A stretch of DNA of 34,777 nt from Deltaproteobacteria bacterium (lineage in GTDB: Bacteria > Bdellovibrionota > Bacteriovoracia > Bacteriovoracales > Bacteriovoracaceae): assembly GCA_006226755.1 (NCBI GenBank), contig SBGE01000219.1, forward strand, positions 1 to 34,777. The letters run 5' to 3'. The notes under the pieces are model-generated. The model did not search any database and was not told where the DNA came from. It saw only the letters and a list, made by a program, of their open reading frames with translations. Position 1 is the first letter of the stretch; each line of letters starts with the position of its first letter. Below, one piece after another: positions 24,054 through 31,890 of the stretch. A program made the translations under genes and the position numbers.

Positions 24054-24428
24054 TTATTTGCCTGTAAAGTTGGCTGCAACAAATTTTCCAGAGAGGGTAA
24101 GAAAGATATACAACTTTTTTCCTTTTTTACCCTTTTCATTATCAAAAGTGACAACCCATTCTTGTTGCTTCCCAAAAGTTTTCTGCTCAGTAGTTCCTAT
24201 AAGTGATTTACTCCAAGACTCATCAATCTTTCCATTTTTGATTAATCTGTGAACATGTTGCTTTCCGATCAGACCTGCCTCTTCTTTTGAAACGGGCTTC
24301 ATTTTCTTTTCACTATGAGAGTGACTATGTCCATGGTCATGACTGTGTCCGTGACTGTGATTCGAGCCAGGCCCAGCATACAATAAAAAAGAGAAAGAGA
24401 GAGCAAGTGTAGTTAAAATCGTTTTCAT
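24054..24428 (-). CDS. Secreted His-rich protein, metal-handling context
   Basis: A 124-residue protein starting at ATG 24428 (AGGAG 6 nt upstream), with a signal peptide ending near LLYAGPG. It is followed by a His-rich block at about residues 23-40 (repeats of HSHGHSHDHG type), likely to bind divalent metal. The remaining ~80 residues form a small alpha/beta domain with ESWSKSLIGT, KQQEWVVTFDN and KLYIFLTLSGKFVAANFTGK; the pattern resembles the DUF6488-type domain, assignment by recall only. It is 9 nt downstream of the HupE-like gene and two genes downstream of another His-rich gene, in one probable operon. Metal (Ni, Co, Zn or Cu) cannot be told. Confidence 0.8.
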   Translation of the reverse strand: MKTILTTLALSFSFLLYAGPGSNHSHGHSHDHGHSHSHSEKKMKPVSKEEAGLIGKQHVHRLIKNGKIDESWSKSLIGTTEQKTFGKQQEWVVTFDNEKGKKGKKLYIFLTLSGKFVAANFTGK

Positions 24429-24437
24429 ATTATTCTC

Positions 24438-25214
24438 CTAGAGATTGTCATGTTGATAGTTATTAGTTTTCGGAGGATCCATTTTCATATGATGGTGACT
24501 GTGGTTATCTTCACTGAATCCGTAATCGTCTGGGGCACTTGTATGTAAATATCCATGAAGTTGCATCAACATCAAAAGAAAACCTGCGAGAACAAGTCCA
24601 TCATTGGCCACTTTGGTAAATCTTTTGAACACTTGAGTATGTCTAACTCCTGAAAGGATCAAGAGCATAATTGTAAGCGCACCAATTTGTCCCAATTCCA
24701 CTCCGACGTTGAAAGAAATGATTCTCATAAGCATTTCACTTCCTTTTTCTCCGAGTGGAAGCTGTTGAAGTCTAGTGGAAAGTCCGAACCCATGAATGAG
24801 CCCAAAGATAAAGACCATCAAGAGAAGGTTAGGAGCTTTCTTCATTCCTAAATAACTTTGAAACCCTCCGTTGTTGTCAAAACCCTTGTAACATACACTT
24901 ATCGCAATCACGGCATCGACGAGCCAGTAGTTAGCCGTTATGCCCATGAATGTAGCAAATATCAATGTGATACTGTGGCCAAGAGTGAATATACTGATGA
25001 ACTTAACGATATCTTTGAATGTCGTTAGAAAAAAGATTACACCGAATAGGAACAGAAGGTGATCATATCCAGTAATCATGTGTTCAGCACCAAGCCATAC
25101 GTACTTTAGGTAGCTACCTTCAAGCATGGCTTTTTTAGCATCTTCACTAATTCCATGTGCAAATAGCACAGGTGAAAATGAGAATCCCAAAATGAGGGAA
25201 AATATCTTAAACAT
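24438..25214 (-). CDS. HupE/UreJ-type membrane protein
   Basis: A 258-residue protein with a signal/first helix (MFKIFSLILGFSFSPVLFA) and about six further hydrophobic helices. The HupE/UreJ_2 family pattern is clear: AEHMITGYDHLLFLFGVIFF, FTLGHSITLIFATFMG and IHGFGLSTRLQ, with conserved Tyr-Asp-His and His-Ser. Family members are implicated in nickel or cobalt transport. The C-terminus is His-rich (SEDNHSHHHMKMD). The start has AAGGAG 8 nt upstream. It lies between two His-rich secreted proteins, supporting a metal-uptake or metal-tolerance unit; the actual metal is an inference. Confidence 0.88.
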   Translation of the reverse strand: MFKIFSLILGFSFSPVLFAHGISEDAKKAMLEGSYLKYVWLGAEHMITGYDHLLFLFGVIFFLTTFKDIVKFISIFTLGHSITLIFATFMGITANYWLVDAVIAISVCYKGFDNNGGFQSYLGMKKAPNLLLMVFIFGLIHGFGLSTRLQQLPLGEKGSEMLMRIISFNVGVELGQIGALTIMLLILSGVRHTQVFKRFTKVANDGLVLAGFLLMLMQLHGYLHTSAPDDYGFSEDNHSHHHMKMDPPKTNNYQHDNL

Positions 25215-26736: not shown

Positions 26737-27711
26737 TTACTTGGCCAGAAGAGTATCTAGGGCCAAAGACTTGTCAGATTTGTTTTCGAAGTTTTCGACA
26801 ACTTCCTCAACAGCTTTTCTCACTTCTGGAGAAAGCTCTAATTCAGCGTCTTTGTTAAATCCAAAGTACCCACCATTATTAAGAGCAAAAGTCTTATCGA
26901 GGTTTCCTTTGAATCCCTTGTCTTTAGGAGCATGTGGATCTTCAGGATTGTTGAATCGACAAAGCTGGGCAGGTCCACCGTTATAAGCTGACCAAGTCCC
27001 TCTCATCAGGTTCTGGAAGTTAGGACTTCCATCTTCGTTTGAGAAACATGAGAAGCTTGAATACTTACGAACAGCTCTCTTATATCCTCTCATAAGGTAA
27101 GTCAGACCGTATCTGATAGTCTTTTGAACAGACTTATAGTCGCCTTTATCCAGGAATTCGTCGAAGTGCCATAGAGAACTTAATTGAAAGACACCAACAT
27201 CACTACCATCAGCTCCACCTACGATCAATTGTCTGTATTTTCTTTCGCCTTCGAGCTTGTCACATTTTACAAGGAAGTCTTGCTTTAAAATTCCATTGAA
27301 AGCTCTTTTAAACTGAAGCTTGGCCTTCGTTGAAAGGATGCCTTCACCAGTAGACCTTGAGTCGGTACAGTATTGGCTTTTCCCTTTCACTTCTCTGAAG
27401 TGAACAAACAGACCCTCGTGATTAGGTACAGTCAGGGCCAAGGCAAGAAAGCCGTAATAAGCTTCGATATTTCCTTCGTTTTTGAAACCGACAGCTAGCC
27501 TGTGAGCTTCTTTCAATAGAAGTGAGGCGATCTGATCACCATATTTTTCTTTGTTACGATCTTTATGTCTGTAAATAGGACCATCAATTGTGGCGTTTTT
27601 GTTGATATTGGCCGTCACGTTATCGAGAATTTTTTCAATAAGTGATGCAGCTCTGGTTTCAAAGGATAGCGTTGCCAAAAGTGCGACAACCAACACACGT
27701 TGAACTTTCAT
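26737..27711 (-). CDS. Secreted lysozyme-fold-like protein, putative murein transglycosylase
   Basis: A 324-residue protein with a signal peptide (MKVQRVLVVALLATLSFETRAAS). Elements typical of lysozyme-fold/SLT domains appear in order: a helix with ALALTVPNHEGLF where a catalytic Glu could sit (the Glu in NHEG), GVFQLSSLWHF, GLTYLMRGYKRAV, and WSAYNGGPAQLC. The order (Glu segment, GVFQL, then AYNGGP) is as in soluble lytic transglycosylases, though no strict family motif was found. Four cysteines point to disulfides outside the cytoplasm. It is divergent from mepA, so two candidate peptidoglycan-cleaving enzymes face one another. The enzyme call is an inference. Confidence 0.75.
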   Translation of the reverse strand: MKVQRVLVVALLATLSFETRAASLIEKILDNVTANINKNATIDGPIYRHKDRNKEKYGDQIASLLLKEAHRLAVGFKNEGNIEAYYGFLALALTVPNHEGLFVHFREVKGKSQYCTDSRSTGEGILSTKAKLQFKRAFNGILKQDFLVKCDKLEGERKYRQLIVGGADGSDVGVFQLSSLWHFDEFLDKGDYKSVQKTIRYGLTYLMRGYKRAVRKYSSFSCFSNEDGSPNFQNLMRGTWSAYNGGPAQLCRFNNPEDPHAPKDKGFKGNLDKTFALNNGGYFGFNKDAELELSPEVRKAVEEVVENFENKSDKSLALDTLLAK

Positions 27712-27853
27712 TTTTCCCCCATAGATCTATCTGATTCCTAGGCGTTTTTTAACCTGAGAGGGCCTAATGCGCATCGCGGTATGAAGAAGTTATAGGGTAA
27801 TTTGGGACATTTTTTCACAAATGGGACGATTAACGCAGTGCTCATGTGAAAGT

Positions 27854-27883
27854 CTGCCATGGTCTTCAAACTCCGGCTACAAT
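27854..27883 (+). promoter_or_regulatory. Possible promoter for mepA
   Basis: CTGCCA (27854-27859), an 18-nt spacer and TACAAT (27878-27883). The -10 box ends 6 nt before ATG 27890, so transcription would begin at the start codon. No Shine-Dalgarno sequence is seen upstream of ATG 27890. Confidence 0.45.
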
Positions 27884-27889
27884 AGATCT

Positions 27890-28573
27890 ATGAAAACTTT
27901 ACTAGCTTTTAGTCTATTCTTAAGTCTAGGTTCTCATGCAGGGGAGCCTGTCGGTTATTACTCTAACGGTTCATTGAAGGACTCCCATTCCATCGATGAT
28001 TACAAGTACCATGGGGTGGTGAAACTCTATCGCTCAAGAGGCCAAAACTTTGGCACGAGTGAGATCATGCAGGCCTTAAGTGGTCTTGCCGAGTTCATGA
28101 AAAAGCGTTTTCCTACCATTGAAAAAACCCAAATCGGTGACATTGCAGCTGCGGATGGGGGACGAATTCCTCGCCACGCCAGCCATCAAAATGGCCTGGA
28201 TGCGGATGTGGTTTATTATCGTGTAAACGAACTCTCGCAATCTCCAGAGTATCCAGAGTGGGCTGAAGACTTTGTCTTAAAAGGTAAGTTGACGACCAAT
28301 TTTCATCTTGAAAGAAATTGGGAAGCTATGAAATACCTGATTCACAATCACAATGTTGGTCGAATATTCGTCGACAGTGCCATCAAGAAAGGTCTATGTG
28401 ATTTTGCCAAAATGAAAGGCGAACAGGATAGTGAATCAGAAGTTTTAAGAAGGCTTCGAAGAGAAGATAAAGTTCATATGCATCACTTTCATCTTCGACT
28501 TAAATGCCCTGCTGGCAGTCCAGATTGTATAGAACAAGTGGAGCCGCCAGAAGGACATGGATGTAATTTTTAA
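27890..28573 (+). CDS. mepA: Penicillin-insensitive murein endopeptidase (M74)
   Basis: MepA cleaves the D-Ala-meso-DAP cross-link in peptidoglycan, in the periplasm, with zinc. The 227-residue protein (start ATG 27890, where the signal peptide MKTLLAFSLFLSLGSHAG begins) has the family motifs. ADGGRIPRHASHQNGLDAD carries His99 and Asp106, matching the E. coli zinc ligands His113 and Asp120, and HMHHFHLRLKCP near residues 196-206 supplies the last His ligands. The GCNF tail and the paired Cys near the end (CPAGSPDC) fit family disulfides. The gene overlaps the stop of the convergent 28570 gene by 4 nt. In Bdellovibrio-type predators such enzymes can act on host wall, but that role is only speculative here. 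Confidence 0.93.
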   Translation: MKTLLAFSLFLSLGSHAGEPVGYYSNGSLKDSHSIDDYKYHGVVKLYRSRGQNFGTSEIMQALSGLAEFMKKRFPTIEKTQIGDIAAADGGRIPRHASHQNGLDADVVYYRVNELSQSPEYPEWAEDFVLKGKLTTNFHLERNWEAMKYLIHNHNVGRIFVDSAIKKGLCDFAKMKGEQDSESEVLRRLRREDKVHMHHFHLRLKCPAGSPDCIEQVEPPEGHGCNF

Positions 28574-29838
28574 TACCACTTTTTACAGTTAGTACGTCCG
28601 AATTTTTTCTCACCCCATCTGTGCTCTAGAGAGTCGTTCGGGTGTGAAGAAAGTCTACCTTTTTCAAGTCTTTCCCACAGAGTCGCAAGGTTCATTGAAG
28701 CACCTTCTCTGTATTTCAAAGTACAAGTATTCGCTAGGTCTTCAGATACGTAAGGACCGTCATTATCGCCTTTGAAAATTGCTCTAAGAACTTCAATAAG
28801 TCTTTTCTTAACAAGAGTATCAAGTCCTCTGCTCACAACTTCGTCAAAGTCAGCTTCAAGTCTCTTGAAAGAGTTTTCCAAAGCTCTGTCTCTAGAAGGA
28901 GTTGAGTAGGCATCATAGTCTTCGTAGTCCATACATTTTCCACCAGTTCTTAGGTGGTGATTCCAACCTTGATTCACGTACTCGATTCTATCCATTGCTT
29001 CCTGACAAAGATCTTGAAGCTTTCTATAGAGAAGCTGTTGTGGGTTTTCGTCTTCTTCCTTAAGTTGGTTTTTTACAAATCTAAAGAACCTTTCTCCAAG
29101 CTTGTCTGCCATTTTGAACTGTTCTTCAGAGTACTCAAGCTCTCTTGGAAGTTCATCGTTTGATCTACCGTCGAACTCTGGCCAGATGAATCTTTTATAT
29201 CCCCAAGCTCCGTGTGGAAGGTTGGAGAAGTTGTGATTCATTCTTCTGATCATTGGAAGTTTGTCTTTAACGATCGCTTGAGTTGAGTAGATCACATCGT
29301 AGTCACCGTATTTGGTCACGTCTTTGATGTTGTAAGTGTGTCTGATGGCATTCTTGTGGTACCACTTCTTATACTTGTAAAGAAACAATGTTCCTGAGTC
29401 TACAGATTCGATTTTTACTGGATAAGTATCGTAATGGGCCAAATGCTCAGTTCCAACAGAGTCTCCAAGGTAGTTGATCATCGCAACAAGTCTGGCCTCT
29501 GGAGTACTGCCAGCACTGTCGAATTTATTGCTTCTGTTATCTAGGTGTCTATAGATTCCGTTACGTGAACCTGATGGGTTGATCACTTTGAATGGAAGTT
29601 TATTTTCAAGAGAAAAGATTGCTCTGATGGCATAAGCAGCATCAGCACAGTCTGGAAGCATTCCATGATATTTACTTTCTGGACTGATAAACAGATTCTT
29701 ATGAACGGCATCTGATTTAATCCATTCTTGATACTTAGCTTCCCATTCCATGGACCATGAATTGGTATCTTCCCAAACAGCAGCTTGTGAGATTGATGTT
29801 GTAATGAGCGTGAGCGAAAGCAAGATTAGCTTGAACAA
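28570..29838 (-). CDS. Large secreted protein, paralogue A, papain-like Cys/His pattern
   Basis: A 422-residue secreted protein starting at TTG 29838 (AGGGGGG 6 nt upstream; signal peptide MFKLILLSLTLITTSISQA). Candidate catalytic residues are Cys64 in PDCADAAYAIR at the start of a helix and His167 in IRHTYNIKD, followed by YDVIYST. This is the local pattern of papain-fold or transglutaminase-like enzymes but is not a proven active site. The C-terminus carries a conserved SHPNDS...HRWGEKKFGRTNC segment ending in KWY. It is very similar along its whole length to the gene at 30520-31785, so the two are paralogues. Function unknown; no domain family recognised. Confidence 0.8.
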   Translation of the reverse strand: MFKLILLSLTLITTSISQAAVWEDTNSWSMEWEAKYQEWIKSDAVHKNLFISPESKYHGMLPDCADAAYAIRAIFSLENKLPFKVINPSGSRNGIYRHLDNRSNKFDSAGSTPEARLVAMINYLGDSVGTEHLAHYDTYPVKIESVDSGTLFLYKYKKWYHKNAIRHTYNIKDVTKYGDYDVIYSTQAIVKDKLPMIRRMNHNFSNLPHGAWGYKRFIWPEFDGRSNDELPRELEYSEEQFKMADKLGERFFRFVKNQLKEEDENPQQLLYRKLQDLCQEAMDRIEYVNQGWNHHLRTGGKCMDYEDYDAYSTPSRDRALENSFKRLEADFDEVVSRGLDTLVKKRLIEVLRAIFKGDNDGPYVSEDLANTCTLKYREGASMNLATLWERLEKGRLSSHPNDSLEHRWGEKKFGRTNCKKWY

Positions 29839-29929
29839 GTTAGACCCCCCTAAATGTTGAAAACACCCCTGATTTATATGTCTTAACGAGCTATGTCAAT
29901 AATTTACTTTTAAAGCCATGGCAAGTTGG

Positions 29930-29935
29930 TATAGT
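29930..29935 (+). promoter_or_regulatory. -10 element before the 29944 gene
   Basis: TATAGT ends 8 nt before ATG 29944, so the mRNA would begin within a base or two of the start codon. No Shine-Dalgarno site is visible before it. The -35 region is weak at 17-nt spacing. Confidence 0.45.
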
Positions 29936-29943
29936 GAAGTTAC

Positions 29944-30519
29944 ATGAATAATAAAAAGAAAATTGTCACATTTTGTATAATTTTGGGTGCGGCCATTCTT
30001 TCTTATTTCTATGGGTTAAGAGACAGGGAACCAGCTGATTCTTCAGCACCTCCTGTGGTAAGGAAAACGCTTAAGAAGACTGAAGAAAGTAAGGTTGTAC
30101 ACTCCGAAGAGGCCAAGCCTTCGAAACCTCATCCCGTTTCAGATTTTTGTAGAAGTGAGAAACCATTTAGTGGCAGTGATATTGTTCATAAAGAGGCCTT
30201 TGCTGAAAATACTCACTTTAAGAAAAATGGTGAAGTGTACCGGATCAGAGTATTCGTTGAGGACGGGCAGAACACCAGTTTTAAGAAGCTGGTTTTTTTC
30301 AAGGAAGATGAAGATGGTTTTCCTCGAATTATTTCTACTAAAGGTCTGATTAATCCAACCAAAGAGCAGATTGGCGAGCTCCTCAAGGGGGGAGAGGTCA
30401 TTCACCGTGAAGCCGATATTTCAATTGAATTGAAGGATGGACGGGCCTTCAACTACTCGGAAGTCAACGGTGAAATCGTCAAAGTTCTCGACGGAAACAG
30501 TGGTTATTCCTGTCGCTGA
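29944..30519 (+). CDS. Membrane-anchored protein of unknown function, between the two paralogues
   Basis: A 191-residue protein with a single N-terminal membrane helix (about 7-24, IVTFCIILGAAILSYFYG) and no cleavage site, then a Ser/Pro/Lys/Glu linker. From residue ~65 a compact domain (YRIRVFVEDGQN, FKKLVFFKEDEDGF, ISIELKDG) looks like a beta-sheet fold. There are Cys at FCRSEK and near the C-terminus (SGYSCR), likely a disulfide outside the membrane. It is inverted relative to the two surrounding paralogues, and its stop is directly next to that of paralogue B with no base between. No known family. Confidence 0.75.
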   Translation: MNNKKKIVTFCIILGAAILSYFYGLRDREPADSSAPPVVRKTLKKTEESKVVHSEEAKPSKPHPVSDFCRSEKPFSGSDIVHKEAFAENTHFKKNGEVYRIRVFVEDGQNTSFKKLVFFKEDEDGFPRIISTKGLINPTKEQIGELLKGGEVIHREADISIELKDGRAFNYSEVNGEIVKVLDGNSGYSCR

Positions 30520-31785
30520 TCAGTACCATTTTCTACAACGAGTTCTACCTTCTGCAGTCTCTCCCCATCTCTGGGCGATACCATCATTTGGATGTGAAGT
30601 CATAAGACCTTTTGAGAGACGATCATAAATATGGTGTAGATTGACTCTCACACCACGTCTGTAATTGATGATACACATGGCATTGAGATCGTCTCTAACT
30701 GAGCTCTGAAAGAAATTATAACCTTTGAAAATACCCTTGATGGCGTCCATGATTCTTGGATTCACATAGTCTGATAGATTTCGGTAGATCACTTCATTGT
30801 AATCGGCCTTCAAAGTTTCGATCGACTTCCAAAGGTTTTCATCTCTAGCCGGAGTTGAATACGCATCGAATTCCTCATAACTCATACAACGGTTACCAAT
30901 TTCTCTTCTATAATCGAGTCCCTGGTTGACGTAAGTTGCCCTAAGTTGGGCCTCTTGGCATACCAGTTTGATCTTTCTAAGAAGCATGTCTTGTGGGTGT
31001 TCTTCTGATGTTTTCAGCTTGTCTTTAACGACTCTAAAAAACCTTTGGCCGTGCTTTTTAACTAGATCATATTGCTCGTAGCTGAATCCCATTTCCTCTG
31101 GAGGTTGATCGTTTTCCAGACCTTCTTGGCTTGGCCACTTCCAACGTCTGAATCCCCACGAGCCATGAGGAAGATTTGTAAAGATAAAGCCAGATTTTCT
31201 CATCATTGGAAGTTTGTCTCTAGCAATCGCTTGAGTCGAGTAAATGACATCAAAATTTCCATACTCAGAAATATCTTTGATGGAATAGGCGTGACGAATG
31301 AAGTTACCGTTTCCACCCTTGATTTTATAAGTGAAAAGCATTCCTGGGGCGATCTTGTCGATTTTCACAGGAACTGTATCAATATGACTTAAGTGTTCTG
31401 TACCAATACTTTTGCCGAGGTAGTTGATCATAGCAACCAATCGCTTTTCAGGAGTATCTCCGGCCTCGTCAAATTTATCTGTCTTATTACTTAGCTTTTC
31501 AAACAGCTCTGAAGAATTGTCTTTAGGAGCATGGACTTTAAAAGGTAGAGCGTTTTCCAGCGAAAAAATGGCCCGTAAGGCATAGGCGGCATCTGCACAA
31601 TCGGCGTTAATTCCATAATATTTACTTTTCTTACTGGTGAACATTCTAGTGTGAACTTTGTCGGTTTGAATCCACTTGGAATATTTTTTCTCCCAGTCCA
31701 TAGACCAGGTATTAGTGTCTTCCCAGACAGCGGAAAATGCTGAAGTGGCGGTTAGAAGTGTCAGTACCAGTGTGATGTATTTCAT
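30520..31785 (-). CDS. Large secreted protein, paralogue B, papain-like Cys/His pattern
   Basis: A 421-residue secreted protein; start at ATG 31785 (GGGGA 5 nt upstream), where the signal peptide MKYITLVLTLLTATSAFS begins; an in-frame ATG at 31827 is less likely. It matches paralogue A over nearly its whole length. Shared segments include AVWEDTNTWSMDWE, DCADAAYALRAIFSLEN with the candidate Cys nucleophile, RLVAMINYLG, IRHAYSIKD with the candidate His, and a C-terminal SHPNDG...RWGE...GRTRCRKWY. Cys positions differ little between copies, so fold and chemistry are probably the same. Duplication followed by insertion or inversion of the 29944 gene is one explanation. Function unknown. Confidence 0.8.
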   Translation of the reverse strand: MKYITLVLTLLTATSAFSAVWEDTNTWSMDWEKKYSKWIQTDKVHTRMFTSKKSKYYGINADCADAAYALRAIFSLENALPFKVHAPKDNSSELFEKLSNKTDKFDEAGDTPEKRLVAMINYLGKSIGTEHLSHIDTVPVKIDKIAPGMLFTYKIKGGNGNFIRHAYSIKDISEYGNFDVIYSTQAIARDKLPMMRKSGFIFTNLPHGSWGFRRWKWPSQEGLENDQPPEEMGFSYEQYDLVKKHGQRFFRVVKDKLKTSEEHPQDMLLRKIKLVCQEAQLRATYVNQGLDYRREIGNRCMSYEEFDAYSTPARDENLWKSIETLKADYNEVIYRNLSDYVNPRIMDAIKGIFKGYNFFQSSVRDDLNAMCIINYRRGVRVNLHHIYDRLSKGLMTSHPNDGIAQRWGETAEGRTRCRKWY

Positions 31786-31890
31786 ATGAGTCCCCAAATT
31801 AACGTCAAAAATGATTTTTCGAATCATAGCTCTCGTAGCAATAAATTCAATGGGATTACTTAAAAGAGTAATATTTCAATTTTTAGAAAT

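Follow-up and report, generated by a model that had tools for sequence, protein, structure and literature searches.

The window analysed here, a stretch of 34,777 nucleotides (contig SBGE01000219.1) from a member of the Bacteriovoracaceae, carries two similar genes on one strand and a third gene inverted between them. In the list of open reading frames, paralogue A (28570-29838, reverse strand) encodes 422 aa from a TTG start, comprising a predicted signal peptide (about residues 1-19), a putative catalytic half (about 20-260) and a helical C-terminal domain (about 262-420). P, which encodes a putative membrane-anchored partner of 191 aa, occupies 29944-30519 on the forward strand, and paralogue B, a member of A's family that retains the catalytic residues, occupies 30520-31785 on the reverse strand. 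The reading frame of B as listed is longer (30520-31827, reverse strand, 435 aa); the most likely start is the second Met, which gives the end at 31785 used in the preliminary description of this DNA. A gene for an M74 (MepA-type) murein endopeptidase (27821-28573, forward strand; Pfam E 3.3e-34), a conserved neighbor, is convergent with A.

The gene ends are tightly packed at both convergent junctions: the M74 gene overlaps the 3' end of A by 4 bases (28570-28573), and the TGA stop of P (30517-30519) directly adjoins the stop of B on the opposite strand (30520-30522), the back-to-back arrangement already described for the pair. A terminator scan found none at the A/M74 or P/B junction. A and P diverge from a 105-base intergenic region (29839-29943) that, by position only, would be a shared promoter region; a promoter scan found no site inside it.

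A and B are 53% identical across 405 aligned positions and are thus, as judged by their sequences, real paralogues that are alike throughout and flank the inverted gene, in agreement with the preliminary description. The helix with the Cys and the strand with the His that it pointed out are present in both, as DCADAAY and IRH[TA]Y respectively, and the common C-terminal tail also persists in relatives, as an R-W-G...C motif in which R407, G409 and C418 are each kept in 69 of 70. For residue conservation we used 113 distinct full-length A relatives of at least 385 aa, leaving out shorter copies. A hydrophobic 10-mer is present in 111 of these, and an AxA-like site (a permissive pattern) lies just ahead of the invariant Trp22 in all 113. 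With signal features in nearly all full-length relatives, the predicted export signal marks A and B as exported proteins, as had been proposed.

A predicted papain-like active site

An AlphaFold2 model of A was built from a 58-row alignment (mean pLDDT 93.4, pTM 0.89). In it, helix 64-78 has Cys64 in its first turn, and His167 lies on strand 165-174, with the next strand at 180-184. The catalytic half, as modeled, shows papain topology. Eight residues are invariant in the 113 full-length relatives (Trp22, Trp28, Asp63, Cys64, Asp66, His167, Gly213 and Gln240). The preliminary description had suggested a papain-like Cys/His pattern, and conservation of the two residues had been set beforehand as a test that could refute it; both are found in 113/113 full-length relatives, and in 5/5 short copies as well.

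The short copies, which occur in some Bacteriovoracaceae-type genomes, are 256-269 aa long, ending just behind the catalytic half. Each of the five distinct copies retains D63, C64, D66, H167, G213 and Q240 and is missing the four C-terminal cysteines. At position 186, 19 residues past His167, the full-length relatives have Thr (91), Ser (21) or Asn (1), and 5/5 distinct short copies have Asp; the stretch between His167 and 186 is gap-free in the alignment rows inspected. Papain-like enzymes were taken to have a third polar residue after the His (N/Q/D/E, sometimes S/T), a range that includes every residue found at 186. The swapping of Thr, Ser, Asn and Asp is as expected of a third catalytic residue, and natural variation therefore makes position 186 (Thr186 in A) the candidate for that role.

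The C-terminal domain is helical and has four conserved cysteines. In the model, residues 262-411 form a helical bundle with generic fold matches only. Disulfides may form among these cysteines, and also in P.

Relationship to known families

No Pfam or NCBIfam model matches A, B or P over its cut-off, whether single proteins or alignment members are searched, so that the earlier failure to recognize a family was right at curated cut-offs. The best sequence match is DUF4846 (PF16138), which 15 of 58 A-family members hit at E<=1 (best 2.1e-6), with a best score of 27.8 bits against a curated cut-off of 37. An excerpt of PMC10318531 classes DUF4846 as papain-like and, owing to its GD motif, possibly as an NlpC/P60-like wall enzyme. 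According to the same excerpt, an Arg on strand 5 is the partner of the Asp of the GD motif in DUF4846's cluster, and DUF1839 has a Ser/Thr hydroxyl in its active site (PMC10318531). In the A family, Gly149 is kept in 110/113 and Lys/Arg215 in 113/113 full-length relatives; unlike in DUF4846, the GD Asp (D150) is only partly kept (52/113) and is replaced in both A (GT) and B (GM). No DUF4846 proteins were found in 97 genomes or 14 controls.

Comparisons with other wall enzymes gave scores below significance. Pfam reports no NlpC/P60 (PF00877) match for A or B, and the model is absent among the Pfam matches listed for 47 and 58 A members. An hhalign comparison with seven NlpC/P60 proteins reached E 0.02 in an alignment of 16 columns confined to the GD strand, and one with two CHAP proteins reached E 0.13, both non-significant. 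The CHAP model (PF05257) touches 3 of 58 A members below the cut-off (best E 0.0011), one member scoring 22.5 bits against a cut-off of 26. Because all scores lie below the curated cut-offs, we assigned A and B neither to NlpC/P60 or CHAP nor to any other named family.

Fold searches with the A model gave a similar picture. Foldseek returned no match at E<=0.001 in PDB or BFVD; staphopain and CHAP are among its rows over the catalytic half (best E 0.96, non-significant), and VASH1 is also listed, below threshold. Against viral models the rows are weak (E 0.15 or worse), several of them named lysin, CHAP or peptidoglycan hydrolase. A whole-protein VIA search was dominated by the helical C-terminal half of A; over the catalytic half the CHAPk domain of LysK ranks first (Z 6.1, 132 residues at rmsd 4.1, model positions 30-219; non-significant), followed by the streptopain SpeB (Z about 5, 144-158 residues aligned; sub-threshold). 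A PDB sequence search returned nothing of meaning. Because the fold matches to CHAP, streptopain and staphopain are weak, the papain fold rests on topology and conservation. Of what the preliminary description expected here, the papain-like core appears in the model of A, while the fold search itself gave only weak matches. Its "new class" of secreted cysteine enzyme was too strong; A and B look like a new family within the papain-like superfamily, near DUF4846 and closest to the NlpC/P60 side. They are very probably papain-type cysteine enzymes.

The Ser/Thr at position 186 raises a different possibility, that A and B do not hydrolyse but instead modify envelope proteins or lipids, as transglutaminase- or LRAT-like transferases or deamidases of the papain fold. 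Cys-His-Ser/Thr sites like the candidate site of A occur in vasohibins and in some transglutaminase-core proteins, as stated in an excerpt of PMC4866520, and Foldseek listed VASH1, as noted above. The Vasohibin model (PF14822), however, has matches in 2/144 genomes of the phylum, none of them at a listed A copy, and the short copies have an ordinary Asp at 186, which makes a transferase or deamidase role very unlikely. Vasohibin membership of A was set aside; the model is also absent among the best 25 of 38 Pfam rows for A members.

Distribution of the A family

The A profile finds relatives in 162/368 genomes of the phylum, and the pattern shared by A and B is thus far beyond chance. A scan of genome contigs yielded 190 relatives, from which 79 distinct loci were retained. 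Relatives occur in Bacteriovoracaceae, Halobacteriovorax and Bdellovibrio-type genomes, and in Thiotrichaceae (Leucothrix, Thiothrix, Cocleimonas); the organism names of genome groups (e.g., Bdellovibrio for g52) were inferred by matching named loci. Many genomes have several A-family copies. Two copies from one metagenome-assembled genome labeled "Aquificaceae bacterium isolate MAG 28" (L134 and L156) are nested deep inside the Thiotrichaceae clade, and are therefore probably the result of misbinning. A mobile-element or phage origin of A was considered and rejected, with no match in plasmids or phages and none confirmed in viral contigs.

The nearest tree relative of B is a lone copy in the sister genome (L089). 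Beside this A/B homologue is a gene for a small exported protein (L089:1132-1593, forward strand) with a CxxHDxCY motif that we take to be phospholipase-A2-like. A search of part of the literature found no paper on the A/B family, and the main text of PMC12546842 does not mention papain, cysteine or NlpC. Within those searches, the family is undescribed.

A putative membrane-anchored partner protein

Iterated profiles collected 59 distinct P proteins. They begin with a hydrophobic helix, followed by a linker that varies and a domain enclosed between two cysteines (conserved in 58/59 and 57/59), which are Cys69 and Cys190 in P. The model of P (pLDDT 87.3, pTM 0.62) has a helix at 3-26 and a beta-rich domain at about 80-190. 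The best fold rows are 2een_B, in our own reading a CYTH-like protein (Z 5.6, rmsd 7.6), and MHC-like sheets, with an rmsd of 5-8 for most rows; we believe neither assignment.

P lies within 400 bases of 48 of the 113 full-length A genes. In most of these P is co-directional and directly downstream of A, or divergent from it as at A 28570-29838/P 29944-30519. The P profile is found in 114/368 genomes of the phylum, 104 of which also have A, and 58 genomes have A without P; the overlap is a manual count, and other families may account for some of the weakest A matches. The 35-row A clade that holds the window copies is more uniform, with P in 31/32 genomes (hand-matched), the sole exception being the sister genome (G078). 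P and A have become separated in genera g3 and g16 and in two genomes of g17; the moved P copies inspected, from three genera, are directly before murJ or one gene from it. P was not detected in 8/8 Thiotrichaceae-type genomes, and A can therefore work without it. From the contrast between 31/32 clade genomes and 0/8 Thiotrichaceae-type genomes, the tie between P and A is lineage-specific and strong within one clade. The suggestion that the inverted gene encodes a membrane-anchored partner gains support from the conserved linkage (48/113) and the co-occurrence (104/114).

A second P-like subfamily, P2 (about 255-270 aa; L182, L183, L191, L192, L195 and L200), occurs in Bdellovibrio-type genomes. 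Its copies lie far from A, near genes that by eye appear valS-, TrmO- and 2OG-oxygenase-like rather than wall-related, and we regard these neighbors as uninformative about the role of P.

Alternatively, A and P may be neighbors through inheritance only, P having no functional tie to A. This would fit the 65/113 A genes that P is not beside, the distant P2-like copies, and the sister genome, which has an A/B homologue and no P. It would not account for two linked orientations, for the relocation of P near murJ or for the presence of P in nearly all genomes of the A clade, and we consider neighborhood by inheritance decidedly improbable. Instead, we lean slightly towards P acting directly on A, which would involve physical contact between the two; inhibition and tethering are inseparable here.

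Cell wall genes in the neighborhood

An M74 endopeptidase gene is near A in 19/113 rows (the A and B of the window share one); these rows come from several genera in the family of the window and from a single genome outside that family (L051). M74 is scarce, being present in 12/39 relatives, and the gene at 27821-28573 is the single M74 copy of genome G000. The surrounding DNA examined for 94/113 A loci has no M74, so that the two genes tend to be close without always being so. In Thiotrichaceae, A follows murJ and a DUF945 gene in six loci and is near glmU/glmS in four.

Two other parts of the window were noted. The gene at 26737-27711 (reverse strand) encodes a 324-aa exported protein that by eye reads like a presumed lytic transglycosylase; no Pfam model of that kind matches it, and a PDB sequence search gave two unrelated-looking matches only. 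At 24054-25214 (reverse strand), a HupE/UreJ_2 membrane protein is encoded beside a DUF6488 protein, possibly a metal-handling pair.

The neighborhoods also bear on whether A and B might be proteases similar to streptopain or staphopain, secreted to digest protein of the prey or the environment, with P protecting the producer as an inhibitor held in the membrane. Staphopain (Foldseek) and SpeB (VIA) are indeed among the weak catalytic-half matches, and the presence of several A-family copies in many genomes would suit such a role. However, the recurrent neighbors are wall genes, the nearest sequence family is the NlpC/P60-like DUF4846, and the A family also occurs in Thiotrichaceae, which are not known to be predatory. 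Protein digestion is thus an unlikely function. Peptidoglycan is the probable substrate of A and B, as suggested by the similarity to DUF4846, M74 near A, P near murJ, and Thiotrichaceae A near murJ or glmU/glmS. Counted against a wall hydrolase are the lack of any family over cut-off, the non-significant hhalign and Foldseek results and the presence of the GD Asp in only 52/113. Further points against a wall hydrolase partnered by P are the 94/113 A loci without M74, the Thiotrichaceae without P, the 10/114 P genomes without A, and the neighbors of P2.

Proposed function

With moderate confidence, we propose that A and B are hydrolases of the papain fold that are exported and act on the peptides of peptidoglycan, and that P is their membrane-held partner. 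A and B would be exported and would use a papain-fold site formed by Cys64, His167 and Thr186 to cut peptidoglycan at its peptide (amide) bonds, either in the periplasm or in the prey, like NlpC/P60-type endopeptidases. P would be anchored in the inner membrane by one helix, with its small beta domain and conserved Cys pair facing the periplasm. There it could tether, activate or restrain A and B near the producer's own wall, as a dedicated regulator or self-protector.

Parts of this arrangement resemble known systems. MepS is an NlpC/P60 enzyme. In the pair of MepS and NlpI, a membrane-held adaptor handles a papain-like wall enzyme of the periplasm, as P may do for A (excerpts of PMC11211486 and PMC7049810). 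The A family, in contrast, has no significant hhalign relation to the seven NlpC/P60 proteins compared, and NlpI is an outer-membrane lipoprotein, unlike P with its N-terminal membrane helix and its beta domain. In predators, the wall endopeptidases Bd3459/Bd0816 are neutralized by a dedicated self-protection protein, Bd3460, according to an excerpt of PMC4686830; these are DD-endopeptidases and an ankyrin protein, unlike the putative cysteine enzymes A and B and the predicted membrane-anchored beta domain of P. The CHAP domain (CHAPk of LysK) gives the best catalytic-half VIA row, but its scores lie below the cut-off and the profile match is not significant.

A more specific scenario, which we consider speculative and rather doubtful, is a wall-cutting system of predatory Bdellovibrionota, in which a cysteine-braced helical domain was added to papain-fold endopeptidases, P provides membrane-tethered self-protection with a new beta fold, and the third catalytic residue changed from Asp (short copies) to Thr/Ser (long copies).

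Implications

Predatory bacteria must cut the prey wall while sparing their own. The known wall enzymes of predators include DD-endopeptidases, lysozymes and deacetylases, the first of which are described in the excerpt cited above for Bd3459/Bd0816. The A family is widespread in the phylum, yet named by neither Pfam nor NCBIfam, and the A/P locus offers a concrete enzyme, active site and partner. With the change from Asp to Thr/Ser at the putative third catalytic position, nature has already set up an experiment on catalysis of the papain type. The problem of telling the own wall from that of the prey would gain a further layer through a family of cysteine enzymes that has a membrane-held partner of its own.
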